Positions 29,871 through 54,322 of a DNA stretch of 64,000 nt are shown here, piece by piece. Made by a program: the position numbers and the translations under genes. The DNA comes from Impatiens glandulifera. Taxonomy: Eukaryota; Streptophyta; Magnoliopsida; Ericales; Balsaminaceae. How positions within the stretch are numbered: the first letter of the stretch is position 1; each line of letters starts with the position of its first letter. Under the pieces are notes generated by a model, which saw nothing but the letters and a program-made list of their open reading frames with translations, was not told where the DNA came from and did no database searches. The stretch lies in NCBI RefSeq assembly GCF_907164915.1, contig NC_061863.1, forward strand, positions 9,983,882 through 10,047,881, written 5' to 3'.

Positions 29871-29901
<31 letters not shown>

Positions 29902-31030: not shown

Positions 31031-31034
31031 AACT

Positions 31035-31975
31035 CAACATCCTTTATCTTCAAGATTGGAACCTTCTCTAGAAAAAAGAGTATGATTAAATTATTGGCTG
31101 GTCCGTAGAGACTATGAGAGAGTTATCAAAATGCGCCAAAACCAATGTATACACAATAAAGAGCAATACAAACTAGAAGGTGGACCAAGTATGGAAGAAA
31201 GGCAAGTAACGTGAACAAACTGCACAAAAACAGAATGTTGAACATAATTAGAATGTGGGGCAGAAACATAATTTTGGACATAAACATAATATGGGTCAAA
31301 AATAGAATGATGGGCAAGGACAAAATGTAGAGCAAAAAAATGTGAATCAATTTCGGGAGAAGAGTCATATATTTTTGGAACTTTAAAACCAAAGGTAGAA
31401 ACTCTTGGTTCTCCTTTCGAGTTCAAACTACCATAGAAAGTGGATGAACAATGTCTAAAATCATGAGAAAATGTAGTCGGAAACTAATTTGGAAAAAATT
31501 AAAATGAGAGAATGTTTGTACTCCCAAAGAAGAAAGAGGTCTGGGAATACATCATTTTTTTCATGAGTTTACACATTGTTCCTCCACTTCCTAGGGTATT
31601 TTGAACTTGAAAGGAAAACCAAGTATTTCTACATTTGGTTTGAAAGTTCCAAGAAATATATGACCCCTGTCCCGAACTGAATTAACAATTTTTTGCTCAT
31701 CATTTTGTTTCTACCCAAAATTCTGTTTCAACCCCGCATTCGGTTTCTGTTCAACATTCTATTTTGATGCAGCTTGTTCATATTTCTTGACTTTCTTCTA
31801 TACATGGTCCACCTTCCAATTTATATTGCTCTTTATTATGTAGACCTTGATTTTGACGCATTTCGATGACTCTCTCAAAGTCTCTACGGACCAACCAACA
31901 ATTTTATAATACTCTTCTTTATGGAGGAGGTTCCAATTTTGCAGATTATGGATGTTAAGTTAGATATTATATTGT
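31035..31975. repeat. 0.94-kb palindrome (foldback) in the left arm only
   Basis: Positions about 31040-31490 are complementary to about 31560-31970, with a short loop. Matching phrases include TTGGTCCGTAGAGACT-type TGGTCCGTAGAGACT, AATAAAGAGCAATA and GAAGGTGGACCA read on opposite strands. Its limits are marked by CAATATA and TATATTG. The right arm lacks it. A transcript would fold into a long hairpin. It contains protein-like wording (RRDYERVIKMRQNQ) on each arm but no intact gene. Confidence 0.75.
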
Positions 31976-31978
31976 TCA

Positions 31979-33010
31979 ATTCAGATCTTCTACTACCGAT
32001 TGCTGTGTTCCCCTGTGGCGGACCAATCAGATTGCAGCATTATTATTTTAATAATAAATCAATCTGGGGAGGAGACGGAGGGAGGGAGAATTCGGAATCC
32101 GGGTTTCGGCCCGGGTTCACACCAGACGCCGTTAACGGCAGCGCCTGTTAACGGCATCAATTAATATAATAATCATATAGCACCCAGATAAGATATCTTC
32201 GCTCATGGCACCGTGTTAGAGGGAAGGGTGAGATGCGATGGGAGCAAAGATCTACACGCCCGTTGCCCTAACCCTCATGTAAACCCCCCATACCCACCCT
32301 TGAGAAGACCGCTTGCCTTTCATGTAAATACACTTACCCGTCTATGTAAAGACCAAAATTACATGTATTTTATATTTCCGTTTATTAAATATTAATTTAA
32401 TTATTGAAAATCGAATGCAGCGATATAATATTCGCTTCAAGTAATTCATTCATTTTTTTTCTAGGAATTTTATTTAATTTTTTATTTCATTTTTTCGGCT
32501 TGGAGACCCTCAGGAGCGAAGATATATTTGCTTCAATTAATTTTAATAATAACCTCATGTAAACTCCCAAACCCACCCAAGAGAAGACCGCCTGCCTCCC
32601 ATATGAATACACTTACCCGTGCATGTAAAGACCCAAATGACATGGATTTTATATTTCCGTTTATTAAATATTAAATTAATTTATTAAAAATCACATGCAG
32701 CACCCGAACAAATCTTCGCCTCAATTACTTGGCTATTTTATTTTTATTAATTTTATATTTCCGTTTATTAATAAATGTAAATTCAATGAATTTAAAATGA
32801 CATGTAGTAAACGACCAAATATTCTCTTTAATTTTGTTTTTCGAGGAGACGATTGAAAGCGAAGATTTCTTCTTTTCAATTATTTTTAGCCTGACGTTCA
32901 TGTAAAACCCACTCCCCTCCCATGAGAAGCCAACTTGCCTGTCATGTAAATTCACTTACCCGTGCATTTACATCCCGCGAATAAATCTTCGCTTCGAATA
33001 ACAGTTTTTA
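31979..33010 (+). repeat. Left inner inverted-repeat arm with subterminal repeats
   Basis: It starts near TTCAGATCTTCTACTACCG, includes a GC-rich part with CGGCCCGGGTTCACACCAG and the double motif GCCGTTAACGGCAGCG / CCTGTTAACGGC (about 32127-32155), and continues with copies of the 120-bp module and the 18-bp quasi-palindrome. It matches the complement of 52400-53872 with small length differences. Confidence 0.75.
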
Positions 33011-33244
33011 TTTTCAATTTAATTTTTGAATTTTTTTAAGAAGTTACGATATCGAACGAATATTTATTCGCTTCCATTACTAGTTGATATAATTTCAATT
33101 TCCCGCTACAATCCCACTCTCCATCATTTTCATTTTCATAAGCAACTGTTCATATTCTTCTCTCTCTATCTCCCGGCGATAATCCAAACAATCAACGTCG
33201 AAACCCTAAATATTTCTTTTATTCTACAAGGATTTCTTCTGAAG

Positions 33245-36200
33245 ATGTCAGGGAACCAAGGCAACAACATGAAAGTGGATACCATCGACTCCCAAGAGGT
33301 CGTCTTGGAAGTCTGTAGGAGCATAAACGAAAACGAAACTGCCCCAACTCCTGCATCCAACGTCAATCCCAGCAATAAACCAGAGAGGTATGTTAATCTT
33401 ATTGTGTTTATACTAATTTTACACCTGTTTATTCACTTTATTTCGTTGAATACTGATTTATGCTATCCCACCAAAAATAATGACTTCGAGGTTTAATAAC
33501 TTTACATATGAAAGGAAGAGGAAGAGAAATCCGAAGACGAATACTAAGTCGTCATCGACTGCTGAATCAGTTTCCACAGTTGCTGTCGAAGCTACTGATG
33601 TTGCTGCAGGTACTACCCATTTTGATGAGATTTTACCACCACCTTTTCCCCCTAAAAAAAAACCCAATGTTATTCCTACCTCCACTCCAACAGTCGATGA
33701 AGAGTTACCAGAACCACCCCCAGAACCACTAATATTTCTCCGTGTACTACCCCATTCGATGAAGAGTTACCACCATCTCCCCCAAAAACCAAAACCCTCA
33801 AGAAACGTAAACTGACATTTCTAACCAGATCATCACCTCATGGCCTCGCTCAACTGATTCCTAAATTGAGCGTAGAACAGAGGGAAGCCGTGAAGGAAAT
33901 CAGGTTTGGTTCTCTTCTTACAATGGGTGTCTCCAAGTGCCTGGCGCATTTTTCCAGACACGTAATCCAATGTTTTGACCCGGATAAGAGTTCTCTGGTA
34001 TTGGACAACGGTGATGAGATCCTTATCGATGAAGATCTCGTACAACTCGTGATGAACCTCCCTAGAGGGGCAACGAACGTAGTCGAGTCCGTTGGGGGGG
34101 ACAAGACTAAGGACCCTGATTATTTTAATTTCTTGAGGGATTGGAAGACCAGATGGACTGGGGAAGACTCAAAAGCTCCCGAAACACTTTCTATGATCCC
34201 CAAGATATTAAGTAACACAAGTGCAGACAACGATTTCAAAATCGACTTCGTTGTCTTTGTTGTCTCAAGTTTTTTATGTCCAGTTCAAAATTCACGAGCC
34301 AGGTAAACATGTATTCAAACCTATTATATATCTAATTGTATTTGTGAATACTGACACATGTATTTTTTTCATTTCAGGTTCAAAATTCTCAAATCCTTAA
34401 TGGATGTTGATAACATAAAGGAACTGAACTGGTGCCACTTCACACTACAACGATTGGTTGACAGTGTAAGAAGTTGGAAAGAAAAAGCAAGTAAAGATAA
34501 AAATCCATATTTCGATGGACCTATAACCCTTTTATCGGTAAGTATTGTTGCCTCTCTTGTATATGATTTATAGATATGTAATATTTTCTAACATGTTTCC
34601 CATTCTTTACTCCAGATTTGCTACCTAGATGGTGTTTTTGTGGAAGGTGAACGTATCCCCTACGAAAGGAAATTTCCAATAATCTCTTGCTGGGATGACG
34701 TCACCGTGTTAGAGTTTACCAACTTAGAAGTTCGTGCCGGTGGTTTTGGGCTGGGCAGGGCAAGGGCGCGCCTAGCAGGTAAACAACCCGAGAATCCAGT
34801 TGACTCGGTTGAATTAAAAGAAGACGATAATGAGGTATGTGGAAACAATCAATTGACTCCCATTGTTCTTTATTATCCTGTTTTCAAGATTAATGAAATC
34901 TGTTTTTCATAATGTACAGATGTTGACATCCAAAATCCTGCAAACTTTTAAAGATACCGCCCAACAGCTGAATTACCTATCAGGGGAGTTAGAGAAACGC
35001 AACATCGATCCGAAGCCCTTTTTTGAGGCCGGTTTCCTGAACCTCAGAGAGTCTGAAGGGTTCATGAAACACTTGAAGGTGGTGAACGATGGTGAGGTTC
35101 GTGTAGGTGTGGAAGATCCTACAAGGGAGGCACTTGGGGACACTTTACAGTGTGCGGGCTTGAAAATCAATAGTCCCCGGGTTGATTACACATGTGAGAC
35201 TGCAGTGGAGGACCATGCAGACAATCCACTAGCACGGGTTGAACAGAATGATTTAGAGGATGCAGTTATGCCAAATCAAGAAAATCGCTCAGATCACGTT
35301 GAACCGAATGATCTCGATGATGCCGTTCTGCACAATGAAGATCAGTCACTCCCTGTTCAACCGAAAGATGTTGAGGATGTAGGTCATGACATTGACGATG
35401 AATCACTCCTTGTTGAACAGGAAGATGTACAGACTGCATTTCAGCCCATTCAAGCCAAGTCACCCCCTTCTCAACAGGACGAACCTGAGGATGCAGTTCT
35501 GCCCAACAAAGATGACTCACCCAGTGTTGAACCAACTGATCATCAGTGTGAAGGCAAGGAACCGGATGAGGTACCCAAAGTGCAGACACCCACTGTTGAA
35601 GACGATGATCAGGGTGAAGGGAAGGAACAGGTTGAGGAACCCAAAGCGCAGCATGTTGAACTAAATGATCAGGGTGAAGGGAAGGAACATGTTGCGGAAC
35701 CCAAAGCTCAGTCTGTTGCACCAAATGATCAGGTTAAAGGCAAGGAAAAGGTTGAGGCTTCTAAGGCCGTTGAATCTTCTGAAGATGAAGATGAAGATGA
35801 TGGGGGGGGATGCATCAACATTAGAGAATATCCTAAGAGGAAGATCACGAAAATTCCTGTGCACCTTCGACCCCCTTACATGCAACAGGTTGCGGATATG
35901 TTGGACCACAACATAACCAACAAGGAACAGAGATTAGCCGATTTTGTGTTTGATGAAGACCTGCCTCCAATGTAAGTTACCTCTCATGCTTTTCGGAATT
36001 TCAAATATGAAATTAGTTAGTTATGGTCTTCTAAATGAATGTATTTTGCAGGGACGTTCTGTACGAAGGTGCACCGGGTAATATCACCCGTAAGCTATTT
36101 CAAACAGTGAAAATGGGTCATGAAATTGCGAGCGAAGTTGTGGACGCTTGGTCCATAATTGTGCACTTCAAATGCCGTAGGTTTCCAAGGCATGAACCAC

Positions 36201-37005
36201 GAATAATTTGTTTTTCATCAATTTCACATGTAAGTGCTTCTCTTGTTTTGTGCTATGTATCCTTCAATGTTCATGACTTTGAGTCTCCACCCTTATTTTG
36301 CAGGTTAATCTGCAGTATGATAGGACCTTATTTTGTCAATCCCTTGAAGAAGACATGAGAAACTACCATGTCACAAAAGAAGACCTCATCTTCGCTGACC
36401 TGGTATGTACATATCCCTCAATTCCAAGTAACGAGAATGCCATAAAATAACAAATGTTTATGTTCTTTTTGCAGATATTCCTACCTGTCGTCACTTCCGG
36501 ACATTTCTTTCTTGTATGTGTGAATATTAAAGACTCCCAAATCAATGTACTAGACAACTCCGGTCGTCCGCATAGAATGAAAATTTTGGACAAGTATGTC
36601 CAGTTGAGGAATCAACTCGATAGTTTTTCGACTTTCTTGTAAAGGCAAGGCATACAAAGATTTGCAGAAAAGGTTAAGAAATACAAGATAACGGCCCCAA
36701 AGCTGCCTTGGCAAGACCAAACAAACAAGACAGACTGTGGTGTATATTTAATGAGACATATGGAAACATATAGAGGAACGATGAAGGGTTGGTCTTGTGA
36801 CATCAACAAAAATAATGTAAGTGTTATACCATATGTTATTCTATGACATTTAACAATTTTAAATGTTCTTATACTTTCTCTTGTTCTTTTGAAGGCCGAC
36901 GAAGCTTTGAGTACATTGAGGATAAAATATTTATACAGAATTCTTATGTCTGAGCACAATGTCAATAGGTTCAAGTTAAAGACTGCAATTAGATCAAGAT
37001 ATTAG
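33245..37005 (+). pseudogene. Ulp1-like (C48) cysteine protease gene A of the MULE
   Basis: Encodes a SUMO/ubiquitin-like protease relative. Exons with GT-AG borders: 33245-33387, 33515-34302, 34378-34537, 34616-34834, 34920-35971, 36052-36229, 36304-36402, 36475-36816, 36895-37005. The N-terminal domain (EIRFGSLLTMGVSKCLAHFS..., FKIDFVVFVVSSFL, LMDVDNIKELNWCHFTL) is the one usually found ahead of Ulp1 in plant transposon ULP genes. A long acidic linker with about four 20-residue repeats (DQGEGKEQVEEPKAQ type) follows. The catalytic core shows His in GHFFLVCVN, Asp in NVLDNS, Gln in LPWQDQ and Cys in TDCGVYLMRHME. Two lesions: a frameshift near 33729 and stop TAA 36640-36642 inside the protease. 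It is a paralogue of gene B (42851-46871). Confidence 0.8.
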
Positions 37006-37249
37006 GGATTTGTATGTGTTATACGGAATTATACTTGTACAGTAATTCTTATGTTTACACAGGTCAATTGACCTATTTTTAATGTATGGATGTTTGATAT
37101 TGATTTATAACTTATAATGCAATTCAGATCTTAATGTATGGAAGGCAATTCAGATCTTAATGTATGGAGTTATAATGAATTGCTTATAATGTATTGATGT
37201 TTGATATGTCTTCTTGTACCCATATTTGTGAAATCCTAAACGAGGTTAT

Positions 37250-37700
37250 TTTCTTAACTGTATGTTTTAATATTCTTAAACGAAGATATATTCTTAACAT
37301 GATGAAACTGATAAACTTGCAACCGTAATATTGACATGATGACCACCTTTGAAACTAAATTATCTTGTTATGTCTTCTTGTGGCCCTCTTCTTAACTATC
37401 AATTTTCAAATTCCTAAACGAAGATATCTTCTTATGTTCCTTTTTGGTGCAATCCATATTTTGAAAATCAGAGACGAAGATATCTTCTTCAATATATGTT
37501 TGCAAATTACTAAACGAAGATATCTTCTTCACTATATATTTTGAAATTTCTAAACGAAGATATCTTCTTAATTTTTTTGGGGTACAATCGATATTTTGAA
37601 AATCAGAGACGAAGATATCTTCTTCAATATATGTTTTTAAATTCCTAGACGAATATATATTCGTATAGACATGAACTAAAAAATATAATACGAAGATATC
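37250..37700 (+). repeat. Cluster of GAAGATATCTTC palindromes
   Basis: At least seven copies of the form ACGAAGATATCTTCTT, spaced about 45-65 bp, lie in a tandem-like array between gene A and the DUF7745-like gene. They are a local variant of the element-wide quasi-palindrome. Confidence 0.8.
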
Positions 37701-37798
37701 TTCACAACATGTAATGCACCTACCAGAGTTATGTATTGATGTGAATTCAAGAATGAAAACTCATTTATTACTTCAACTACTGCTGTATCAACATCATC

Positions 37799-37858
37799 AC
37801 TCTCATACCCTCACTCTCACTCTCACACTCCACTCTCACTCTCACCTCTCTCTCTGTT
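37799..37858 (+). repeat. TCACTC/CTCTCA microsatellite
   Basis: A CT-rich run of CTCACTCTCA units just upstream of the next gene, probably in its 5' leader. Confidence 0.8.
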
Positions 37859-37898
37859 TTGACTCTTTCCTTCATTCATTTAGTATAAAACTCATAAG

Positions 37899-39063
37899 AT
37901 GGATGTAGAGATGGACCCAGACATGCTTGTTTTATCGTAGCAACAGCTGGAGCGATACTTAAGTCTAATCAACGATGACCCTGTCCCTTTTAGTGTCTAT
38001 CATGTAGATGAGATTCTACCTCTATTACGAATAAACGTTAACGACGGACTGATGACCCACATGCAAAGCAGATGGAATACGGACTCTCGTTCTTTTGTTA
38101 TTGGGGAAATGCACATATGCCCGACGATAGAGGACTTTGCTTCAATCCTTAGGTGTGGTAGTCTTGCACTCATGATTTTGCCTGTCAATCAAGATCCTCA
38201 TATGGCCGTCCACATTTGCGACAGCTTCTATGGATGTACAATGTTTGATGCTCTTTTGTTTACCCTCCAACATGGATTTCTCAATATGACAAACATAGAC
38301 GAGTACATTTGGCGTGTCCAAGGAGCTGAGAGGACCATCAACCACACACAAAGCAAACTGATCATGCTTGTGGTTCTGGCTCATTTTTTTTATGTCCGGC
38401 TGCAGGACGACGGCCTTCGGAAAGGATCCTGCAGGTAGTTCCTGCACTGATGGGAAACGCCCCAAACCTGGCTAGCCTGGTACTTGTTGAGACATTACTT
38501 GGTCTTAACGAATTTGTTCCAGAGGAAAACAACTATTCTCGCCGTGAATCACCTTTGGTTCTCTACCTCTGGTTGTTAGACAAGTTGCATTGGTTGCCCC
38601 GTCCTTTAATTCCCTACACTTCCTTTGCCAATCTACAAGTGCAAAGGGTCAATGGACTCGTGCCTCCGAATTTTATTTCGGATATTCACCCAATTAGGTT
38701 CATTGTTCCGTGGTATCTCTTTACTGTAATGATGTACGAGATGAGGGGTTCTCCATTCATCATTTTGTTGGGCCTTAAGGGAACTACCTCCTACTGCACA
38801 ACTGTCATATACAGACAATTTGGCCTACGGAATCCCCTACCTTCGAATGGACTCAATCCTCCGGAGGACTTCATGCTTACTCCTCACCATCTTTACCTAG
38901 AGTACGCATCAATAATTGAAAATTCTTTGACGGTTTTAATCCCCAACGATGGATCAATGCTGTGAACGAAGCCATTCAGCTATACATTCCACCCGTCATC
39001 GAACATGAGGTCGTGTCACTGACAGGACCGATTGACGAGTCATCCTCTCATGAATCAGACTAG
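37899..39063 (+). pseudogene. DUF7745-like (plant mobile-domain-related) gene
   Basis: Starts at ATG 37899 (MDVEMDPDML) and ends at stop 39061-39063; about 388 residues when frames are joined. Features: RWNTDSRSFVIGEMHICPTIEDFASILR near residues 57-84, resembling the opening of DUF7745 and other plant mobile-domain proteins; a helical middle (ILQVVPALMGNAPNL); and GLRNPLPSNGLNPPEDF followed by FNPQRWINAVNEAI. Lesions: TAG at 37938-37940, a frameshift near 38418 and another near 38925. Mobile-domain proteins are often found in or derived from transposons; their biochemical role is poorly known. The domain name is a judgement from overall wording. It lies between the two Ulp1 genes on the same strand. 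Confidence 0.55.
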
Positions 39064-42000
39064 AACTTCATTTGTATTTTTGAACAGCTATTTTGTTGGT
39101 TAATCTGTGCAGTACTTATGTAAACGGATTATGGAATGTTTTTCTGTATTCAACAATATTATGAAGTTATGTTTGATTATAGTCTGAAGTTATATTTTAC
39201 ATTATGTAGTTAGTTTATTCTGGAGTGATATAAATCGAATCATTGTCGTTATGTTTGATTGTTTGATTGCAATTTGGATGTCATGATCAATTCAAAGTAT
39301 AATGTAAAACAACTGATGTGTTCATGTAAAACCCTTAAATTGATCCATCGATTGGTTGTTCGCTTCATTACACAGTATCTAATCAGTAAATGGAACGGAC
39401 ATTTCTTCGTTTGTTTGTTAGTGTATTACTTTTTACCATGTGATTGAAAACGAAGATGAAGTCGCATCACATCTTTGAAGTTACATATTATTGTATTTGT
39501 GCCACTTTCATGTCATACTCTAATGAATTTGAAAACGAAGAACCATTCGCCTGTAAGTTTCTATATTAAACACAACATTGTTACGAAACGAAATACTATT
39601 CGCTTGATATTCATATTTGAGGTCGACCACATTGAACGAAAATGTATTCGCTTGTATATTATATCCAAGGAATGGTTGAATGATTGAAGAAGCGCCAAAA
39701 CATTTTACATTACATGTCACGTCAGATTACAATTAGGGCAATGATTTCACTTATGGGAAACATATAATTAGCCAGAAGAGTAGATATTATAATACTTTAA
39801 TATTTATAATAAATTCGTTATTTTATAAATGTTTAATGACATGTGCATGAAAATATAAATAACAAATAATTATTATAATTCGACGTACAAAATTTCATTA
39901 CAAGTTTCATAAACATTTCTACGTTTCATAAACATTTGTACATTTTAACAATATTCATCTGCATCTCCAGCTTCAAGGCATCTCCATTGAAGCGACCACA
40001 GCGGATCTCTCACGCATAACTGTGGTCATACACCTGTTGAGTTATCTCTTGAGATGTTTTCCATCCCAGGGAATCTCCCACAGCTGGCGCTTCCCACCAG
40101 CAGTGGACACGAATGATCTTCATTTGATCGGTAGTTTCTACTTGAGTTATCAAGCATTCGTGGTAACTGAAGATGTTTTCCACCAGTTGATCTTCATTGT
40201 ACAAGTTTTCCATCACAGAGAATCTCCCAAATGATACAACCCAACAAACTATCTGAAAAAAACACACACTCTCAACAACAACGCTGACGAAATATTTCAT
40301 GCTGCCGACGAAGATTGTTTATGTAATCCCTACATTTATAGCAAACAGAAAATCTGTTTTCTTCATAAAATATTTAGATCTATTAATTCAGAAAAAGTAA
40401 ATTTCCCGTGATGAAATATCAAATCGGAACAGTTTGCAGTCCATTGGTCACATCATGAAAAAGTAATTTCATTAACGAAAAAGTAATAACACTTATATTA
40501 AATAAAAAAAATAATTCAATATTGTCATTCACATTATATTAAATAATAAATTATTTCCACATTAATAAAAATATTTTCATAAATAATTATAAAATTATAT
40601 TCAATATAATATTATTGCTATATGAAGGAAATTATGTTCAATATAAATAAGAATTAAAATATATTTTATTGAAAACATTAAGCCTGAAAACATTTTAATA
40701 TCCCACAAATTACCAAAATTAACATGAATTTTGAAGTTCCGTGTATCATATAAAAAAATTAATTCGAACAGCGAAGAGATGTTAGCTAAAATAACTCCAT
40801 AAGTGAAGAAATCTTCGCAACAATTGTTTTCCACCTGTCCCCCGTGTACACCCCCCAACACAACCATGAGAAGCCCGCTTGTCTGTCATGGAAAGACACT
40901 AACCCGTGTATGTGAAGACCAAAATTAAATGTATTTTAAATTTCCGTTTATTAAATATTATATTAAATTATTAAAACTGACATGAAGCGAACAAATATTC
41001 GCTCAAATGACTTGGCGGATTAGTAGGCAGTCCTTTGTTTTGTCACATCATGCAGAAATTATATTTCATCATTGAAAAAGAAGTGTGTTTTTGTATAAAA
41101 CCCTATAAAGAAATCATTTCATATCTATGGATTTAGTAAAAGTATTAAGCCCGTCATCATATGTCAAATCGGAACAGTGTGCAGTCTTTTTGTCACATCA
41201 CAAAAAGTAATAAATATTATATTTTAATAAAGTATTTATATTATATTAAATATTTCATTATTGATAAAGTATTGTTACAATAGTGTAATGTTAACATTAT
41301 ATTTTATTAAATATTATTTCTATATAGATAAAATTATGTTAGGAAATAAGTATAAATTTTTATTATATATACTATTATTTCTATATGAGCAAAATCATAT
41401 CGAATATAATTTACATTTAAAATATCATGAATTAAAGAAATTCATATAATTCAATTATAACGTCCGAACAATTTAATCAAAGACTTGGAAATGACATGCA
41501 GCGAATAAATCTTCGTAAACATATTAACATTAAATTATTTTTCAATTTTTTAACACATGAATTCATCTTATTAAAGATGAAAAGAAGCGAACATATATCC
41601 GTGTACAGTGAAAACTGCAATTTATGAGAAACTAATATGAAGCGAATAAATCTTCGCTTCAATGATTTTTAAGCTGACGTACATGTGAAACACTCAACCC
41701 TTACATGAGAAGACCCTTTACCCCTGATGTAAGTACACCAACGCTTGTATATGAAGACCAAAATTATGAAGGAATGTGGGAGGAAAATACACGCAGCGAA
41801 TAAATCTTCGCCACAAACAATTTTTCAATTTTTATCCCGTAAATCACATTTCATTTTTATTTATAATTCATTACTGAAATATTTTCGTACGGTATATCAT
41901 ATCTTAAAGTAATCATTACACATCGAATCGGACCAGTCTTCAGTATTTTAGACAGGAAACATCATTCATAATTTATATATTGTTAATTAAAAGGAAGAAA

Positions 42001-42850
42001 CAAAAATTAGGTGCTGTTTGATCTTGGTACACTTATTATCGAAAACAAAAATTTATAGAAATAAAGGCTGAATACTCCGGTCATAAATCAAAAAATGACA
42101 TTTAATATAATTAACATTATATGAAATATTAAATTATTCATACATAACAAACATTATATTTATTACATCAGTGTAAAAGTAAAATATATATATTGTTATT
42201 TATATTTGAAGAAAAATAAATTAAATTTAATTCACAGCTCAATTAAAAATGAAAATATTAAAATGAAGCGCCAAAATTTTTTTCACATGTCAATTCAACT
42301 GTCACAAAGTCTCAGGCTTTGTGATGACGGCAAGTCATTTCCACCGCTACCATCCCATCAAATGTCAATCCTTTAGATTGGATACGATCTGTTAAATTTG
42401 CAGATCGAAGATTTGTTCGCTTCTTCAGCATTGAGAAGCAAATAGTTGTTCACATTGTGGGAATTTTTTTCCAAATAATGTGAAACGAGAAAGACATGTC
42501 CTAAGCGAAGATATATTCGTACATTGCTGAATTCTGCACGAATACATCCTCGCCTATTCTAGTATGTTTCTTTTCATAATGCAGAATTACATGTCACATT
42601 CCATGAGCGAATATCGCTTCTACTCATACGAAGTTCATGAGAAACTCCTTATTCATGTTTGTGAAAACCGATACGGCCTCATGAAAATACACTCACACTA
42701 ACAGAGCACTTTACAAAGTAAAACATCTCAAGCCCGAATCCGGCCGTCATACACCCAGGTTATTCTACCATCTGACCTAGCGCTGTCGTCTCCGGCATTT
42801 CGACTACGAATCCATTTCTCTTCTGATTAGTATCATCTGCTCCTGCGAAA
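39064..42850. other. Non-coding spacer of the MULE, rich in quasi-palindromes and repeat modules
   Basis: No gene recognised over 3.8 kb. It contains scattered copies of AGCGAANANATNTTCGCT-type sites (40986-41003, 41500-41516, 41641-41658, 41796-41812, 42503-42520) and partial 120-bp modules (about 40838-40945, 41673-41765, 42640-42720), separated by AT-rich filler. The last 150 bases are the leader of Ulp1 gene B. Confidence 0.6.
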
Positions 42851-45800
42851 ATGGTAAGAAGTGTTTACGGTTGCATGCTTGGGTCTATTTCGTTTTCTTA
42901 GTTTAGTTCGTTCGAATCTAAATGTGACTCTATCATCTCAGAATCAGGATTCCGATATGCAAATAGTTCCATATACTGAATCCACGACGGAAGTTAACAC
43001 ACTAAGGTAATTACGCTAATGTTAGAATTGTACAAATTTGACTATATTTGTATTAGGGAAGTAATCCAATTTGCTAATGATAATGTAGTATTCAACAAAG
43101 GAAAAGAAAACCCGATGCATCAGGCACGCCCACGACACCACTGGATATTCTGGCCAACGCGGCGAATGAAGCACTTAGTGAGAACCAAGTTAAGAAGAAA
43201 AGAAGAAGGACTCGTGACCCTGATGTTGATTTCAAGAGCAGAACCTCTCCATCGTTACTTCATCACTTGATTAACAGGTTATCTGAAGAACAGAAGCAGG
43301 CTGTTAGGGACATAGGATTTGGTTCCCTTCTGTCACTTGGCATATCAAAATGCCCACTTCAATTCTCACGGTGCATTGTGAGTCTATTCAATCCCAGAAG
43401 GAGGAGCATCGTCCTACACAGTGGAGAGGAGATGCAGATTGATGAAGAGGATGTTCAATGTGTATTGAACATACCAGAGGGGAATTAGTAGTTGCAGAGT
43501 GTTTAGGAAATCACACGGACGACAAGGTGTACAAGGACCATCTCACGGCGTGGAGAAGGAGATGGGGATTCGAGAACACTGGAGGTCCTTCAACCTACCA
43601 AATGCCTGAGAAAATTCTACAGAACACAGAAGGAGACAGTAACTTCAAGATGGACTTCGTGGTGTTTGTTGTATCCAGTTTTTTGTGGACATCCCAAAAT
43701 CCACAGTGCATGTACTTCATTTAGAACTTCAATATCATTTTAAATGGCTTGAGTCACTCCTTTTTTATGTACAGATTCAAAGTACTGAAATCCCTCCAGG
43801 ATGTATCTAAAATCAAAGACTACAACTGGTGCAAGTTCACGTTAGACGGGCTAGTCGACAGTGTTTATAAGTGGAAAGAAAAGAAGACATCCTATTTCCA
43901 TGGACCATTAACGTTTCTTTTGGTGAGTGTAGAAATCTATTTGCTGTAGGTTGTACCTTCATAATTTTTCATGAGTTTGAACGTAACATATATTTGTTCA
44001 TGCTAATGTATCAGTTGTGCTACTTGGACCGTGTGGTTGAGTTCAAGGTAAACAGTCAGATCTCAAGGAGTTTCCCTATTTTAGGATGCTGGGACGAGAA
44101 AAAGATGTACGAAAGGGTTGAGTTTGAGGCTGCACAGGGGGGTTTGGACATGGTAGGGTAGTTGCTCGCATAGCCATTCCGAATGAGCAACCACCGATTC
44201 AACAAAATGTGGAGCCAACACCACCACAATCTGGAGAACACCATCAAACTGAGCAGGCTCCAATTACACAAAACCTGGCATCATGTTTGAGGAAGGTTGC
44301 GGCCGCTGCAGACGAATTGGCACAAGGGGCTAAATATCTGAATGAGATGCACCAGATAAACGCCATGGAACTTGTACAGTCTGCATTTGAGCCATTGGCC
44401 ACGGTACTAAACTCCAATTCAATCCTGAGGGAAGGCTTACAGCGGAGCCTGGACCAAAAAAAAAACCAGCAGCCCGGAGGAAGTGGCATTAACCCAAACA
44501 CAGAAGCCACCACCCAAGCGAAAGGCAACACCAACCCTACCAACAACCCTGCCAACACCAATCCAACGGCCCCATCCAACAAGAACACATTAACCCCCAC
44601 CACCGAAACAAACACCCCATCCAACACCACTCCAACAGACCAAACCAACAAGAGCAGCCTTTCTCCCAACACACAAAAAAACACCAAAGCCAACACCACT
44701 CCAACAGCCCTAGCCAACAACAACACCCTTTCTTCCAACACCGTAAAAAACACTAAAGCAAACACACAAGAAAAATGCAACACCCTTCCTCTAAACACCC
44801 AAGACAATACACAAACCACCCTCACACCAACGACCCAATCCCACAAGAACCCAATTCCACTAAAAACAAAAACAAAAACCCCAACCCCAACCCCTCCACT
44901 TGCACAATCCAAACCCAATGCCAACCCCATTCCTCCAACCCCAACCCCAACCCCTCCAATTGCACAACCCAAACCCAAAGCCAACCCCATTCCTCCAACC
45001 CCAACCACAACCCCTACCATGGCACAAGCCAAACCCAAAGCCAACCTCATTCCTATAACCCCAAGCCCAACCCCTACCATGGCACAAGCCAAACCCAAAG
45101 CCAACCCCATTCCTATAACCACAACCACAACCCATACCATGGCACAAGCCAAACCCAAAGCCAACCCCATTCCTCCAACCCCAACCCCAACCCCTACCAT
45201 GGCACAACCCAAACCCAAAGCCAACCCCATTACTATAACCCCAACCCCAACCCCTACCATGGCACAACCCAAACCCAAAGCCAACCCCATTACTCCCAAA
45301 ACAGAAACCAACAAGAACACCAGCACTCCAACCACTCCAGCCTTGCCTCCTACCCAATTTCTCCCCAAAAAAGAGGAAGCAGGACCGTCAAAGGCCTTAA
45401 ATGTCTGCAGAAAAGTCCCCCGAAATTTGAAAACAGATTGGTTAACCGATGTCATCAAAACCGAAACCAACAACAACTCCCCTTCTTTGGCGATAGTAAA
45501 AAATGAACCGGAAGAATGCATTTCCAGTCTACCACCGCCACTTCAAACGGCCTCTTCTTTGGAGATAGTAAAGAATGAACCAGAAAAAGGCATCTACAGT
45601 CTACTACCGCCACTTCAAACTGCCTCTTCTCGTCCAAACATGCAAATGAAAGAATGGCTTAAAGCATTGGAATTGCCTCCAGCTTTGAAGACCCCATATT
45701 TCAATAAAATGTTTAGGGATGTAAAACAAATGACAAACATTCAGAAGATTTTTGTGGGTTTCATATTTGCTACAGGACTTGATCCAAGGTAATGTTTCCT

Positions 45801-46871
45801 GGACATACTTAATTATTCATAAAAAAATATAATTTGTACACCATTCTGAAACATGTTTTTCTGTTTTCATGTAGTGAAATGTTATTTATTGCGGAGAACC
45901 TATGTCTACACGTGACTCGCGGGGACATGCTTACAATGGCTGATCAAACCTGGGTAGACAGTATGATTATTGACGTTTGGTCATACATGTTGCACGACCT
46001 TTCTAGGAAAAATGTAAAACGTCGTTACAATAAGATTTTCTACACAACCGTGCTCACCGTAAGTTGTACTAGCACTGTTATTTATCAATTATGTTATTCT
46101 TGTGAGACTAAAGACTGCTGTAAACAGATTTTTTGTGAAGGTGGGATAACTACCCGAGACAAATTCAATGAAAGGTTCTGTCGAGAAGGTCGGGCTTTCC
46201 AAATTTCGAAAATGGACCTCTTAGAAGTGGACCTCGTAAGTACATCTCTGGCTATGATACCTTATAATAGCATGTACCACTCAGTTCAAATCTAATCTTT
46301 TTAAATTCTATCCACAGTTGTTTTTCCCAATCATTGATGACAGACATTTCTACTTGGTTTGCTATAACTTCATACAAAGGCAATTTCAAGTAATTGATAA
46401 CCGGCAGTCACCTATGCAATCGCCCTTCGAAAGAAGATATAAGAATGCACAAATCTTGGTATGACACTACAATTAAAATTTAAAATAGTTCAATTTTGGA
46501 ATTCTAGTAGCACTAAAATACAGTACATCATGTTGTTTGTAATGATGTATCAGGATGACTACATTCAACAATATATGAACGACGTAGACCCCGTTCTTGC
46601 TGAAAAGTATGGCGGTTTGGAAAAGATATGTTTGAAATTGCCATGGCAGGATTCCAAGAATTACACTGACTGCGGCATTTTTTGCATGAGACACATGGAG
46701 ACGTATGAAGGTGAGGTGAAGGGTTGGAAAACTGGCTTTGGCGTTAAAAGAAATGTAAGGAACCAAATAAAGACATTGAGGATGGAATATTGTTGGCGTG
46801 TCATTGGCTCGGAGCTCAACAATGCCAGGAGCAAGGTCTACAATTCCTGCCGTAAATGGATAAGTCCATGA
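42851..46871 (+). pseudogene. Ulp1-like (C48) cysteine protease gene B of the MULE
   Basis: Exons: 42851-42853 (the ATG alone), 42942-43006, 43101-43705, 43775-43922, 44015-45788, 45875-46059, 46128-46235, 46318-46458, 46554-46871, nearly all with canonical GT-AG borders. Domains match gene A: DIGFGSLLSLGISKCPLQFS, FKMDFVVFVVSSFL and LQDVSKIKDYNWCKFTL. A 500-residue Thr/Asn/Pro/Lys-rich linker with seven 20-residue repeats comes next, then the protease with His in DDRHFYLVCYN, Asp in QVIDNR, Gln in LPWQDSK and Cys in YTDCGIFCMRHME. Single-base losses in G-runs near 43483 and 44135 break the frame, but the protease exons contain no stop. Predicted role is processing of a ubiquitin-like modifier; why MULEs carry such genes is unknown. 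Confidence 0.8.
44881..45300 (+). repeat. 60-bp coding minisatellite in Ulp1 gene B
   Basis: Seven units of exactly 60 bp, each giving a 20-residue Pro/Thr/Ala/Lys repeat such as MAQAKPKANPIPPTPTPTPT. The antisense strand is also open by chance, because of the lack of complementary stops. Confidence 0.95.
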
Positions 46872-47722
46872 ATTAGGAACTGTATACATATTGTGTAATT
46901 AAATTTTACAAAGAATTTTAGTTGACATGAGTACAATAATGTAGATGCAGACAGATGGGGTAATTAAACTATTCATATAATTTTAATGATTTATTGTTAC
47001 AATAAAGAATATGTTGTGTAATTTCAATTCTCAAAAAATGTTACTTCACATCTTGACAATAATGAACATGTATACATGCAGATTGTTTTTTATGAAATTT
47101 GATTTTCAAATACTTGTTCAATTATGTGTTAAATGAATAAATTAAGTGAAAGAAACATGAGGCGCATAAATATTCGCTTCAAATACTTTTTCTTCATTTA
47201 ATAAACCCTTATAAAATTTATATGTGAAGACTCGAATTTCATGAAAGAAATATGAAGAGAATAAATATTCGCCTCAAATACTTATTTTCTATGAAGCGAA
47301 TACATATTCGCCTCAAATAATTGTTCATGTAAAACCCCCACCCCATCCATGAGAAGCGGGATGACTTGTCATGTCATTACACTTACCCCGACATGTAAAG
47401 ACCAAATTCCACATAAATATCAATTTCATCAAAGAAATATGAGGAGAATAAATATTTGCCCCAGATACTTGGTGAGGTTGAAGCGAACACATATTCGCCT
47501 CAGTTTTATGTTTCATATTCTCAATTTGTAACTAAAAGGATACTTAATATTAGTTGACTGGGGGCGAATAAATATTCGATTGATTTAGGTGTTTTTATTT
47601 TTTTTAGAAATGAATTAGTGTGGTCATTCATTTGGTATTGCATAAAACTTCGCATGCATACATTCGACCTTATTCTTGGTTTCAAATCCAACATACATAC
47701 AATACTATATACATATCAGATT
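46872..47722. other. Spacer between Ulp1 gene B and the transposase gene
   Basis: The two genes converge here. The spacer holds quasi-palindromes at 47161-47178, 47295-47311 and 47482-47498, with one 120-bp module near 47323-47405. No coding sequence. Confidence 0.6.
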
Positions 47723-50475
47723 TCACATGAAACTGGAATTCGATAGTTGAGATGACAAAAGAACAATGAACGGAGTATTGGCGTCCATGCTGAAACTTTC
47801 GTCCCATTGTTGAGGAGTTGAGAACTGAGGAGTTGTCGTTGGCATTGCATTTGATGGCTGGAAAGGAATATCAAATTTATTTAAAAGTATGTTATTATAT
47901 GAATATTAATAACCCAATTATTAGTAAAGAAGGTAAGTCAGCAAATTCATACCGGAATCTGTGATTCACTAGTTATTCTTGTTGATTTTCTTTTTCTGGA
48001 GTTCTTCTCTAGTCCACATTTCCTTCTCTTACCAGACCTTGTTGGCTTCTTAGTTTTCATTCCTTTCGCTTCAACAGGGGCACCCTCGGCAGAACGTGAT
48101 ACACCGGTTGGTGGAGTTTGCATATTTATACTCTCCTGTAATTTTTTTATCCACAAACGTGCACTGGCTCAGCATGATTTCTTTGACATGCTTGTAAGTG
48201 TCATCTCTTTCGGCTGCCTTGGTAAATAAATGCATGGACAACTCACACAAATATCTGTATCTTATGTTATGAAGCTCACTCGGATCAACATTAGTACTGT
48301 CCACGATTGGATCAGTTCCAAATATTCCATCTTTGGCTGTTCTTGTCCACCTCTTCAATATCAACGCCGGAGGAATCTTCAACACGTCAATCGTTGTGAA
48401 AATCTTTAGGATGTGAGCACACAAAATCCCTCCAAATTCAAATTTACAGCAGCTACACTCGATATTCTTATCGTCATTCTTATGAACTGTAACTGTATGA
48501 GAGCATCTCCTAGTGTGGGGTGTTACCTTGTATTTTTTGTGTGTCGACATCCTCTAACATTTCTACACCACAATCATGCGACATAAACCATTGTTGTTCA
48601 AAGCACTTAAAGACCTCTGGGGTGTAAACTTTGCAGGCATCCTTTAAGATCAAAACTGGATAGTTAAGACTTGGTTGGCTGGTAATTGATTTGAAATCAG
48701 CCTTCAACACATCATATCTTCTTTCATCGAGTAGTCTTTCAAAGTGTTTGAAAAATTCTAAAAACTTGTGTTTGTAGGAGCAGTACCTTTTCAACATACT
48801 GTTCATACTCTCACTTCTCTGTGTTGTCGTCATATCAGCACAAAACATTTGTCGTCCATAGACTAATGCCCACTTTCGCCTGATGGTAAACATGCGTTTC
48901 AACTAGTCGTTGTTTTCAAGCCCGTAGTTTGTCAACATTTGATTCCAAGCTTCAACAAACTCTATCTCTTCTTCAAAATCATATATACACGAAGAAAAAT
49001 CCTTAGAAAAATCTCTGAAATTATGGAACACCGAGCTAAGATGTATGGCTGCATTTTGAAATATGTGCCAAATACAGAGACGATGATTTGTTTCGGGCCA
49101 TGTAGACGCCAAGGCCTTAGCCATGGCCGCGTCTTGATCTGTAAGAATGGTTTTTGGTTTTTTCCCACGCATAGCTTTGGTGAAAGTCTCAAACAACCAA
49201 TCAAAAGTCATCGCAGTTTCATCGTATAATAGAGCTGCTCCAAAAATAATTGATTGTTTGTGATGATTGACACCTACAAAAAGCGCAACTGGACGACCTT
49301 CATTATTCTTCTTGTATGTGGTGTCAAAACTGACCACGTCTCCGAAGTATGAATAATCGGACCGCATGTTGGAATCACACCAAAAAATATTCGTTATCAA
49401 ATCGTCCGCATCAAGTTGAAAAGCATTATAAAAACCAGGATTATTGGATTGTTTTTTCTGCAAATACTCTAATACACCCCCTGTTTCCCCAAAATTACAC
49501 TCTCTGGTTCTTTTCGTGCGCAGGTAATTTTTGTAATCCTCAAGAAGAAAACCTAAATTCTCCCTTCCACCGATTTGTTTAGACATTAGAGCATGTGATG
49601 ACTTAGGAGGAATTCCAACGTTAGTGGCCATCTCGATATGTAAGCCTGCAACTACAGAAATATTCCTATGGCATCTATACCGGTGAGTTTTCTTTGGACT
49701 TGCAAGAGGATGACTATGATCACTAATAAAATTTACCACTTGGAACTTTCCATTGTCTGCCCTCTTTATCCTCAATTTCGCTTCACAACAGAACCTCGTC
49801 ATAGAACGTCTACGTTTCACATAGACATCACGTTTGTCCTTTCCCCGTTCACCCTGTGCACTACAACAAAAAACTCTATCCAGTATTTTACCCTCGTTGT
49901 CTACATGTTTTGAACTGCGCCTTATACCAAATCCTATTAGTTTAGCGTATGCTAGGTAGAATACGTAGTCTTCTTCTTCACTCTCAAATTCCCTACCTAA
50001 AAGTGGAATTAAATTCGCTTCGATGTCCTCCAAAGGTTGGCCGTTTCCATCGAAATTCAATTGACGACGACAAGTAGCAGATTCGCTGTTCAATTTGAAC
50101 ACGTGGAAAATAAAGGTTCAACTAACCAGAACTTGTAGATTATTGTAAAATGAAAACAATATAAGCGAATAGAGCTTCTCTTCAAGATTAATAACATTGT
50201 AATATTATGCGAATATAGTTTCGCTTTAAAACTTATTATCAAAAAAGCTATTAGGGAAGAGATCTTCGCTTACATATGAACGAAAAAAATTAGAGAAGTT
50301 AAACCATGTTACCTTAAATCATTAATATCATTCTCGTTCATATCATTCTCGCTCATATGTGTTCCTTCCTGATAATCAACCAGAACAGAACATTTCATGT
50401 CGAGTATTCGAAAAACATAAAAAAGGTTGGGATGAAAAGTAAAGAAGGTATAGATGACATTCAAAAACATACCAT
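47723..50475 (-). pseudogene. MULE transposase gene (FAR1 + DDE + SWIM)
   Basis: The enzyme that would excise and insert the element. Exons on the minus strand: 50475-50473 (ATG alone), 50368-50313, 50085-47953, 47857-47723. The third exon encodes an FAR1-type zinc DNA-binding region (EFESEEEDYVFYLAYAK, FCCSAQG, FCCEAKLRI, FISDHSHPL). The MULE catalytic core follows (VVSFDTTYKKN, ILTDQDAAM, HRLCIWHIF; the glutamate probably in EFVEAWNQM), then a SWIM zinc finger (CSCCKFEFGGILCAHI) and a basic, nuclear-signal-like tail (KKPTRSGKRRKCG). Lesions: TAG at 48903-48905 where tryptophan is expected, an extra base in the A-run near 48540, and another near 48150. Otherwise complete, so inactivation looks recent. 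Confidence 0.85.
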
Positions 50476-51097
50476 TTTCTAATTTAGGAAGATGGATTGA
50501 TATTATAATGCAGTCTCCGACGAAGGAGAGGTCGATGGTAGACAATGGAGTATCACTCCGGCGAAGAAATGGTCGTACAGGTGAGAGAGAGAGAACAGTA
50601 CAAACTTTGTCTAGCTTAGCAGCATGGCTTGCTGCATGCAGCATTTAATGAAAAGGTGGCAGGTGTTAGGTGGCGGTGAGGTGACTTATTAAAAAAATTA
50701 TTTAATTTTAATAATTAAATGACTAAAATTATTATGAATTAATATTAATAAATCAATCAATCAATCAGTAAGCGAAGATTTCTTCACATTATTATTTTGA
50801 CAATTGTTTTAGAAAGATTATTTTGACAGTTGTTTTAAAACATATTAATTATTTATCACATTAGGGGCGATTAACTTACATAGATGGCTATGTATTAATA
50901 AATGAATAAAAATTTATACTTCAAGTTATACATTATTTCTTCATGTTTCAAGATTTAGTTTAATATAAGGCTGGTGTTTTAAAAAAACACAATTCGAAGA
51001 ACCAAAAAGAGAAATCTGAAATCAAATATGACATTAACAAATTGAAGAATGCAAAATATTCAAATATTCGGTAACAAATTAAACCAACACATGTCTA
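50476..51097. other. Leader of the transposase gene and spacer
   Basis: The first 150 bases are a CT-rich leader (on the minus strand) of the transposase gene. The rest is AT-rich with one degenerate quasi-palindrome near 50770. Confidence 0.5.
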
Positions 51098-52270
51098 TTA
51101 CAACAACAAAGGCTGCAAATCACAGGCAGCAATGGATTCTAGCAAGCTTGTGTGAGGAACACCAAACACATCCAAATATGTCTTTAAAGGATTCTCTGCC
51201 TCAAATACCCAAACAAGTTCATTAACATCGTGCCGAGACTTGTCGAATACAACTATAGTTTTGTCGTCCTCGGGCTCGACAAACGGATTCTCCATTTCTT
51301 TAGTTGTACCTCCTCCAGCAATTACAAACCCCATAAGATCCAGTTTGTAAGCCGGGATGAATTCCCCTGCAAATATGAAGGTGTAACTGTCGAACAGTTT
51401 CGGCAGCTGAAAGAAAATACAAAACATTTTTAGTAATCATGGAGAATTGAATATCATATGGAGGAGTAGTAGGAATAAGACAAAACTTACATTGTTCAAA
51501 TACCGCATTCTGCCAGCTCTTGGACCGCCCACAGTCCCATGATTATCTCGCTGCACCTCGTATGGTTCCTCGTCCACGTAACAGTTAAATCTGATTGATG
51601 ATTTTATCCCTGTACAAAAGCAATAGGTGTTTTTAGTTTCATATATGTGAAAATGAATATTCAGTTAAGAGTAAAGGGTTAAGAATAACAGAGTCTCACA
51701 ATAAATGGTAATGACCCAACTACCGTTCAATATTGCCTTCAATACTTTGATAGTGCGACCGCATCCACCATTAGAATCGGTGGATGCTATGACGTGGGTC
51801 ACATCGTCTCGCCACCTCATTGTCACCGTGGCACCACATGTGTTAGCATATTGTTGCATCAAGTGCTGTTTAAGAACAATCATAAATATTTCAGATAAAC
51901 AGGATGAAAACTTAAACAATATGGAAAAAAAGGGAGATATGTCAAGAATAGTACTATCTCTTCACTTGTTAAATGATTTGGGCATAAAATCCAGTCTTTG
52001 CCAAAGTTTTGGACGGATGCTGTGGCGGTTGCCTGCACGTGCATGAAAAAAAAGGTCTTTGTTAGTATGTACTAGGGTTTCATGGAAATAATATCCCAAA
52101 ACCTAACACTAGGTAAGTTTTCCTAAATCCGATGGATTTACATTGAAGGTGACATTTGGAGAGTAGGGTTTCCTAAAGATTAACGAGACAACAACATCAC
52201 ATAACAGAATCTAGTTTAGTAGTTCCATAATCCTAAATATGAAAAGTTACTATTCAGGAATACGTACCAT
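51098..52270 (-). CDS. Captured tandem-BRCT gene (BARD1/BRCA1 C-terminus-like), intact
   Basis: Five exons on the minus strand: 52270-52268 (ATG alone), 52032-51955, 51865-51700, 51609-51491, 51406-51098. All borders are GT-AG and phases agree, giving 224 residues without stop or shift. Residues about 10-21 (FGKDWILCPNHL) look like the tail of the extended PHD finger that precedes BRCT in plant BARD1/BRCA1. BRCT1 follows with GATVTMRWRDDVTHVIASTD, GRTIKVLKAILNGSWVITIYW; then the typical linker DEEPYEVQRDNHG...GPRAGR; then BRCT2 starting LPKLFDSYTFIFAGEFIPAY and ending ESIAACDLQPLLL. BRCT pairs bind phosphopeptides in DNA-damage signalling. The RING and most of the PHD are absent. Sitting inside the MULE, it is best read as a transduplicated host fragment with a new start. 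Which of BARD1 or BRCA1 was the donor is undecided. Confidence 0.8.
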
Positions 52271-52398
52271 TGTGGAGTCGTGAAGATGTTGATTCTGGTT
52301 AGGTCGACGGGGAGCCGGTTGCGAATCGCCGTGAAAGGAGGCAGGAAGAGAGAGAGATGAATCGGGCGGAAATGATTATAAAATAATCATATTAGGGG

Positions 52399-52408
52399 GT
52401 ATATATAT
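52399..52408 (-). promoter_or_regulatory. TATA-like box upstream of the BRCT gene
   Basis: A TATATATA stretch lies about 130 bases upstream of the BRCT start codon, at the inner edge of the right inverted-repeat arm. It fits a transcription start about 100 bases before ATG. The arm would then supply the promoter. Confidence 0.4.
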
Positions 52409-53872
52409 TCATGTAACCGGGGCGAACATGTCTTCTTTCGAAAAGCGACTATTAATTCCATGTCACATGACACAGGGACCAGGGGCGAATAAGTTTTCTC
52501 TCGAGAAGCGACTATTCAATCCATTTTACATGGAACATGGTCTAGGCGAACAAATATTCTCTTCCAGCAAAAAAATTTAAATAAAAAAAATATATTAATG
52601 AATTAATTGAAGCGAATATTATATCGCTGCATGTCATTTTAAATTAATTGAATTAACATTTATTAATAAACGGAAATAAAAAAAACAAGAAAAAAACTAG
52701 CCAGTAATTGAGGCGAAGATTTGTTCGGTTGCTGCATGTCATCTTCAATTAATTGAATTAATATTTAATAAACGGAAATATAAAATCCATGTCATTTTGG
52801 TCTTTACATAGACGGGTAAGTGTCTTTACATGGTAGGCAAGCGGTCTTCTCATGGGTGGGTATGGGGGTTTTACATGAGGTTTTTATTAAAATTAATTTA
52901 AGCAAATATATCTTCGCTCATGAGGGTCTCCAGCCAAAAAAATGAAATAAAAAAAAAACAAAAAAAATAGCCAAGGAATTGAAGCGAAGATGTGTTCGGT
53001 TGCTGCATGTCATCTTCAATTAATTGAATTAATATTTAATAAATGGAAATATAAAATCCATGTCATTTTGGTCTTCACATAGACGGGTAAGTGTCTTTCC
53101 ATGGCAGGCATGCGGTCTTCTCATGGGTGGGTTGGGGGGTTTACATGATGTTTTTATTAAAATTAATTGAAGCAAATATATCTTCGCTCCAGAGGGTCTC
53201 GAGGCAAAAAAAATTAAATAACAAAATTAAATAAAATTAATTAAAAAAAATATGAATTAATTGAATTAATATTTAATAAACGGAAATATAATTATTAAAA
53301 TTAATTGAAGCAAATATATCTTCGCTCCTGAGTGTCTCCAAGCCAAAAAAATTAAATAAAAAATTAAATAAAATTCATAGAAAAAGAATGAATGAATTAA
53401 TTGAAGCGAATATTATATCGCTGCATGTGTTTTTTAATAAATTAAATTAATATTTAATAAACGTAAACATAAAATCCCTGTCAATTTGGTCTTTACATAG
53501 ACGGGTAATTGTATTTTCATGGAAGGCAAGCAGTCTTCTCATGGGTGGGTATGGGGGGTTTACATGAGGGTCAGGGCAACGGGCGTGTAGATCTTCGCTC
53601 CTATCGCATCTCACCATTCCCTCTGACACGGTGCCCTGAGCGAAGATATGTTATCTGGGTATCATATGAATATTATATAATTTCCTGGCGTTAACAGGCG
53701 CTGCCGTTAACGGCGTCTGGTGTGAACCCGGGCCGAAACCCGGATTCCGGATTCTCCCTCCCTCCGTCTCCTACCCAGATTGATTTATTATTAAAATAAT
53801 AATGCTGCAATCTGATTGGTCCGCCACAGGGGAACACAGCAATCGGTAGCAGAAGATCTGAACTGTATATTG
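52400..53872 (-). repeat. Right inner inverted-repeat arm with three module copies
   Basis: This is the complement of 31979-33010, longer because the subterminal unit (module plus quasi-palindrome, about 270-430 bp per period) is repeated three times. Modules lie near 52795-52885, 53065-53155 and 53485-53580. GC-rich sequence with GCCGTTAACGGC near 53690-53715 mirrors the left arm. Confidence 0.75.
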
Positions 53873-54170
53873 TTGACTCTTCTCCTTGTTGAGGACTATC
53901 TGACATTTCTTAGCTAGGATCAACAATTTAGAAATCTAGTTCCTCAAGCATTTTAGGTTAGCCCTTTCATTTAAACTTACTTGTCATTTACCATTTTTCT
54001 TTGTCTCCTTTATTGTATTATTTTTCTCCTTTCCTACATTATTCTAATATTTCTCACTAACCTTCTCCTTCTCTATTTCTAAGGCAACCTCTTTTCCTTA
54101 GATTATTTTGAGATTTTCTTACCGTTGTTGTAAGATGAGTCAAACTCTCTTGTATTGTTGAAAGAACTAA

Positions 54171-54280
54171 CAGGCCATTTGAACAACTCCAACTGCAACT
54201 TCAAGCTCTTTGGAATATTTTTCCGCTGATTTTGAGGACGTGAAAAGAAGCTTGTTGAGATTGTGATTGTGACCCTCCAT
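54171..54280 (-). pseudogene. Captured first exon of a HAL2/SAL-type (PAP) phosphatase gene
   Basis: ATG at 54278-54280 opens MEGHNHNLNKLLFTSSKSAE, then KYSKELEVAVGVVQMAC. The phrase YSKELEVAVxVVQMAC matches the N-terminus of plant 3'(2'),5'-bisphosphate nucleotidase (SAL/HAL2-like) proteins, where it is followed by SLCQRVQ. Here the sequence leaves the exon after MAC at about 54171 and continues into arm sequence, so only the first exon was taken. Without the rest, no enzyme can be made. It lies in a segment absent from the left arm. Confidence 0.6.
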
Positions 54281-54314
54281 TGATGAACAAGAAGGAAGAG
54301 AAGGGGGTTGATTG

Positions 54315-54322
54315 GTTTTATA
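54315..54322 (-). promoter_or_regulatory. TATA box of the captured phosphatase promoter
   Basis: TATAAAAC on the minus strand lies 35 bases before the ATG in a CT-rich leader context. With the exon it suggests a promoter-plus-first-exon capture. Confidence 0.55.

Follow-up and report, generated by a model that had tools for sequence, protein, structure and literature searches.

The end of the host gene BARD1 appears to have been taken up by transposons in Impatiens glandulifera, where it now forms an amplified family, carried in two families of MULEs and present in a few hundred copies in the genome. The capture itself, the gain of a new splice acceptor, the use of the gene as a working part of two MULE lineages and its multiplication together with them are strongly supported. 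The account as a whole, in which the captured tandem-BRCT protein would also act as a reader at the sites of transposition breaks, is one that we favor with moderate confidence.

In the window (the entire 64,000-nucleotide stretch of DNA analyzed), the gene has five exons joined by GT-AG introns and encodes 224 residues in a lesion-free frame (Table 1), just as the initial annotation had described. The model is backed by the lengths of exons 3 and 4 (166 and 119 nt), which are common to the window gene, its family B relative (see below) and host BARD1 (L073, contig C5; exon ends set by hand). A 216-residue model was rejected: its intron-3 donor lies 24 nt too early and, by comparison with a plant BARD1 relative, excises the Trp motif of BRCT1. 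This 216-residue version was the query in the Pfam, solved-structure and protein-versus-genome searches. With it, the Pfam BRCT match scored 27.4 bits against a cut-off of 21.3, and the best match among solved structures was the tandem BRCT of BARD1 (3fa2, E 3.4e-6), in agreement with the kinship to BARD1 proposed at the outset and with the tree described below. These two matches and the common exon lengths show that the gene model is not a chance product.

Both the RING and the PHD are absent from the window gene, whose model starts downstream of the two. That the RING is missing had been recognized from the start, and the Pfam matches of the protein are limited to three BRCT-type families and a weak DUF. 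The end of an extended PHD finger had also been thought to survive, and this part of the description has to be dropped: Pfam gives no PHD match in the window protein, and the PHD exons of host BARD1 (exon layout by eye) lie upstream of the captured part. The word "intact" is right for the frame and too generous for the residues, since two substitutions, Q21H and D82Y, set the window copy apart at positions conserved in most or all of the copies sampled. Among 30 A1 rows it is the sole one without Gln at position 21; at position 82, Asp stands in 27 rows and Tyr, Glu and Asn in one each. Because of these two changes, the window copy, open as its frame is, may not be a good one.

Table 1. The MULE, its tandem-BRCT gene and neighboring features, by position in the window
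Feature	Position	Strand	Remarks
MULE element	31977..53865		21,889 bp; TIRs and 9-bp TSD; right border recurs in L096-L098
Left TSD	31968..31976		TATATTGTT; perfect 9-bp duplication
Right TSD	53866..53874		TATATTGTT; perfect 9-bp duplication
Left TIR	31977..32550		92.7% identical to right TIR, 575 columns
Right TIR	53291..53865		92.7% identical to left TIR, 575 columns
DUF7745-like piece	37941..38435	+	weak; Pfam 18.8 bits, below cut-off 26
Transposase C-terminal part	48074..48553	-	SWIM zinc finger, other frame; Pfam E 8e-9
Transposase part	48906..50117	-	FAR1 DNA-binding and MULE domains, open frame; Pfam E 9.7e-21, 9.4e-30 (PF10551 9.4e-30)
Tandem-BRCT gene	51098..52270	-	5 exons, 224 aa
Tandem-BRCT exon 1	52268..52270	-	coding part is ATG alone
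Tandem-BRCT exon 2	51955..52032	-	
Tandem-BRCT exon 3	51700..51865	-	BRCT1 core; 166 nt, equal to host BARD1
Tandem-BRCT exon 4	51491..51609	-	end of BRCT1 and linker; 119 nt, equal to host BARD1
Tandem-BRCT exon 5	51098..51406	-	BRCT2; stop codon 51098-51100
Subterminal repeats	52571..53290		upstream of BRCT gene; also at left end

The placement of the gene inside a MULE holds at both borders. The element has a MULE-domain transposase, TIRs and a 9-bp TSD (9-11 bp being the expected range), and its length follows from the TATATTGTT duplication that flanks the TIRs on both sides. The right border recurs in three other copies, known from right-end reads only, in which similarity ends at 53865 (L096), 53861 (L097) and 53871 (L098), an agreement within 6 bases. 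The FAR1-type transposase adjoins the BRCT gene and has the same orientation; as the initial annotation had reported, it carries a lesion, its FAR1 and MULE domains lying in one frame and its SWIM zinc finger in another. When two ORFs of the window were tested for a C48 peptidase, neither gave a match at E 1; a DCGIFC motif was seen by eye.

Several other features of the window may be recorded here. Within the MULE, a long and repetitive open frame rich in proline and threonine (44128-45789) has no Pfam match and contains direct repeats in 60-base steps (44877-45296). Inverted repeats, ~77-84% identical, lie just outside the MULE borders (29761-31031 and 53859-55599), and because they flank those borders, the MULE apparently inserted into an older element with inverted repeats; positions 31018-31974 form a palindrome (73%). 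Farther away are a piece of a disease-resistance gene that covers NB-ARC and winged helix (17996-19126), adjoined by Copia gag-pol pieces (13589-17441), and an open frame for a Ctr copper transporter on the minus strand (25789-26400).

Where the initial annotation saw a single gene captured in one MULE, we find many copies across two MULE families. A search of the plant's own 654-Mb genome with the 216-residue protein, in which the best 150 of 1609 candidates were scored, gave 530 matches, a number that counts exon matches and not copies. The places listed matched residues ~104-115 to 212-216 at 91-99% identity, and nine of them carry a stop, in a ranking by score that favors good copies. Among the matches listed, 149 places are spread over all nine large contigs and small ones as well. 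A second search with the Pfam BRCT profile (best 150 of 646 candidates scored) added 150 places, only 2 of which fall within 2 kb of a protein-search place, so that there are at least 297 distinct BRCT places, a count that includes host genes (at least host BARD1, L001 and L002). L001 and L002, the top two profile matches, were set aside as other host BRCT genes, judged by eye. A listed BRCT exon (from the 149 places) lies at most 4 kb away from 34 of the 40 transposase places, the window's included.

Beyond the top two profile matches we inspected 26 places, of which 23 belong to what we call family B and three to family A. The latter comprises at least two subfamilies, A1, which holds the window copy, and A2, whose copies share ~95% identity with the window across the gene. 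An older branch of family A, ~90% identical, is seen at L095 (G000:C1:81803300-81804500), where the BRCT frame has a stop. The BRCT relative in family B is 58% identical in protein to the window gene. Its element, which measures ~13.6 kb in the 20-kb stretch around one B copy (L069 and L075), has TIRs 89% identical over 888 columns and matches to MULE (2.6e-23), Transposase_mut (1.8e-11), the Ulp1 protease Peptidase_C48 (2.8e-17) and DUF1985 (3.1e-23). A search for its TSD found no exact shared 8-11-mer; by eye, the 9-mers TTGAATATA/TTAAATATA, with one mismatch, are a candidate, provided that the element ends at the outer one of its two tandem right termini. We take the transposase of this element to be MuDR-type, and, judged by gene content, family B is a MULE lineage different from that of the window. 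The same element (L069 4317 to L075 ~7946) lies upstream of a 631-aa open frame, at a distance of ~0.2 kb; by eye, this frame resembles a host membrane protein.

The two families appear to go back to one BARD1-derived ancestor. In a tree of 32 rows, which included family A as majority sequences, a BRCA1 row assembled by eye and 26 of 95 database proteins, A and B form one clade (100/100) that is sister to host BARD1 (100/99) and stands apart from the 26 database relatives and from the putative host BRCA1. The transposon proteins are 50-55% identical to host BARD1, with which the window gene shares not only the tandem BRCT and the two exon lengths but also intron positions and an R-T-x-K motif; it differs in lacking RING and PHD and in having been multiplied inside MULEs. 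A and B also hold features in common that host BARD1 lacks. Their splice acceptor AG|GCAAC falls within exon sequence in BARD1, and they have the words CPNQL (CPNHL in the window copy), FIF and ACDLQ, against CGSAL, FYF and ACQLQ in the host gene. Among the 95 database relatives, examined for the same gene in other plants, none has CPNQ or ACDLQ and two have FIF somewhere, and none of the 26 placed in the tree falls in the transposon clade. From the low identities, our guess is that close relatives of Impatiens glandulifera are absent from the protein database. A single BARD1 capture in the host lineage, followed by presence in two MULE lineages, is the simplest account.

The presence of a few hundred copies in two different MULE families suggests that the captured gene is in use by the transposons and is not one accidental pick-up. 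A versus B gives dN/dS of 0.40-0.42 at dS 0.75-0.81 (~0.78), with a bootstrap range of 0.30-0.60 for A1-B7, whereas the neutral dN/dS expected from the intron mutation spectrum is 0.81. In a neutral simulation run over half the distance between A and B, 0.39 changes per site, the open frame was kept in 0 of 200 runs with either of two spectra. Comparison with the donor gene, which the initial annotation had proposed as a check, points the same way: A or B versus host BARD1 gives 0.43-0.50, and the A majorities 0.45-0.50, below the neutral 0.81. The older A members L094 and L095 yield 0.30-0.44 against the A1 and A2 majorities. Because the frame survived between the families, at dN/dS 0.41 versus 0.81 and with 0/200 simulations retaining it, it is very probable that the gene is of use to the transposon.

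Within families the evidence, taken alone, is modest. For A1 we used 29 copies picked by intergenic DNA rather than by the gene (L039 is the window, counted once). The BRCT gene is lesion-free in frame, start, stop and splice sites in 12 of them and has some lesion in the other 17; the 972-nt transposase part is lesion-free in 13/29, a count that includes L048, whose homology ends at its break. The variant ratio is 0.59 for the A1 BRCT gene and 0.46 for the transposase part of the same element (L048 left out). Fixed differences between A1 and A2 number 2 N : 7 S versus 65 : 30 for singletons (p 0.009), fixed and shared variants together versus singletons give p 0.088, and shared versus singleton variants in family A do not differ (p 0.62). 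When variants were mapped on a tree of family A, in which the A2 rows are not one clade under the rooting used, the ratio was 0.28 for inner branches and 0.49 for terminal ones (p 0.24). The older members L094 and L095 both have stops in the gene. In the B sample, 6 of 23 rows are strictly lesion-free and 9 more have only a 3-base in-frame insertion; L008 duplicates L069 and was dropped, L093-L095 were excluded as family A, and 17 of the 23 rows were taken from the Pfam profile list among equal or nearly equal scores. Most B rows, like the 15 A2 rows, were picked by protein-level score. Family B looks neutral, with a variant ratio of 0.84 and a dN/dS of 1.03 for the pair L007/L003. dN/dS values of 0.34, 0.04 and 0.20 from 30 loci of the protein search (the window, L009, entered as 'win') were set aside because those loci had been picked by protein score. 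The within-family data fit a situation in which single insertions decay freely and only source copies are kept working.

Most Pack-MULE captures are passengers, and the gene described here could likewise be a host fragment that multiplied with the element and is of no use to it. The near-neutral variants of family B, the L007/L003 pair, the many copies with lesions and the fact that the tests within family A reach significance only in part would all agree with such a history. It is nonetheless unlikely in our view, since neither the A nor the B branch has lost the open frame, at an A-B dS of 0.75-0.81 and a dN/dS of 0.40-0.42, since neutral simulation lost it in 200 of 200 runs, and since the variant ratio of the A1 BRCT gene is near that of the transposase part. 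The comparison across families supports selection on the frame, and the tests within family A do so in part.

The constraint between A and B could, however, have acted on a host gene, if the two families had each captured an unsampled short BARD1-like host paralogue. A-B dS is only slightly below the dS of A versus host (0.82-0.91), as two captures would allow, and the inspected places beyond the best two are just 26 of the 150 scored with the BRCT profile. We nevertheless consider this reading quite improbable. None of those 26 places (23 B, 3 A) is such a paralogue, and a search with the PHD region of plant BARD1 gave three matches, the putative BARD1, the putative BRCA1 and one weak one, though this search is blind to a paralogue without PHD; moreover, the upstream acceptor common to A and B is most simply a feature of the transposons.

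Our preferred account, that of one capture turned to the element's use, runs as follows, with strong support for the steps up to the multiplication. In the host lineage, a MULE took the final exons of BARD1 together with their introns. The captured stretch starts within the exon that precedes the BRCT1 core and extends to the stop; RING and PHD were left behind. The splice acceptor common to both families arose just upstream of BRCT1. The truncated gene then turned into a working transposon part, came into two unlike MULE lineages and multiplied with them. Its product would be a free tandem-BRCT protein that lacks RING and PHD and reads phosphopeptides, which, made by the element, would act in trans at transposase cut sites and bind phosphorylated chromatin or repair proteins there. 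Being unable to ubiquitinate, it may steer or compete with the host BRCA1-BARD1, such that the repair of donor-site breaks would preserve the element or bring it back. Action at transposase-made breaks as a reader unable to ubiquitinate is, we infer, the most likely role, and modulation of the host DNA-damage response, as raised in the initial annotation, would be part of the same inferred picture.

The predicted binding site gives some guidance as to what such a protein might read. The phosphate pocket of BRCT1, which we take to consist of Ser/Thr-Gly and Thr-x-Lys, retains Thr65 and Lys67 in 30/30 A1 and 15/15 A2 rows, and the Ser-Ala of the host BARD1 pocket is replaced by Asn-Gln in the four transposon sequences aligned (Asn-His in the window copy). 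The alpha-3 Trp that is usual in BRCT2, and present in BARD1, is missing from the same four sequences, which have Ser in A and Lys/Arg in B, so partner choice is probably altered, or else the fold is weakened. The retained Thr and Lys speak for our account, the changed Ser-Ala and the missing Trp against it. Through the alignment to BARD1, and through BARD1-BRCA1-MDC1 equivalences that we assume, Gln21 of the transposon family presumably occupies the place of a glutamine in Arabidopsis BCP4 and BCP3. According to PMC11014961, this residue (BCP4 Gln823, BCP3 Gln567), at the place of MDC1 Gly1899, is a predicted contact of the gamma-H2A.X phosphate, and BCP4 binds gamma-H2A.X. BCP4 and BCP3 resemble the transposon family in being tandem BRCT proteins whose phosphate site has Gln and Thr (PMC11014961) but belong to another BRCT branch, so the resemblance of the pockets would be convergent. 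We regard the position of Gln21 at a phosphate-contacting place as a lead.

The elements can also be set beside known gene-capturing MULEs. Pack-MULEs are non-autonomous, host fragments replacing the transposase; the elements described here resemble them in having host exons between MULE TIRs and, at the window, a 9-bp TSD, and differ in that both the window element and the B element have transposase genes and that the captured frame is kept across families. A shielding of the element from host methylation, either VANC/KIU-like or by camouflage, in that silencing it would harm BARD1, is very improbable: Ulp1 and DUF1985 do occur together in the family B element, but tandem BRCT is, to our knowledge, not a known anti-silencing fold, and small RNAs would hardly cross to BARD1 at 50-55% protein identity. 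Such anti-silencing roles, of VANC in Vandal MULEs and of KIU, are treated in a MULE review (PMC13317346), as is the long retention of captured Ulp1 in MULEs. The KI (Kaonashi)/KIU MULEs of that review are a close parallel, with a captured host domain (Ulp1) long kept and with the Ulp1 and DUF1985 that family B also has; they are, however, described there as non-TIR (PMC13317346), whereas the elements here have long TIRs and a BARD1-derived reader, and the window element a FAR1-type transposase. BRCT and BRCA1 do not occur in the main text of that review (PMC13317346), and in the open-licence literature, judged by titles, we found no report of BRCT or BARD1 in gene capture by MULEs or other transposons.

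In its broadest form, our reading is that a host double-strand-break reader was recruited as a core transposon gene and selected in two unlike MULE lineages, one of them also with a Ulp1 SUMO protease, and that it takes over break signaling at transposition sites for the benefit of the element; this we offer tentatively, as possible but still somewhat doubtful. Cut-and-paste transposons normally borrow host repair steps after excision, and which of these steps they need is an old question. A transposon that keeps its own BARD1-type reader would make that question testable by the removal of one gene. The case would also parallel that of Ulp1 in KI-MULEs, as captured host DNA that became a lasting transposon gene. 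For the plant itself, the family would be a high-copy source of BRCT proteins, which may interfere with the host BRCA1-BARD1.
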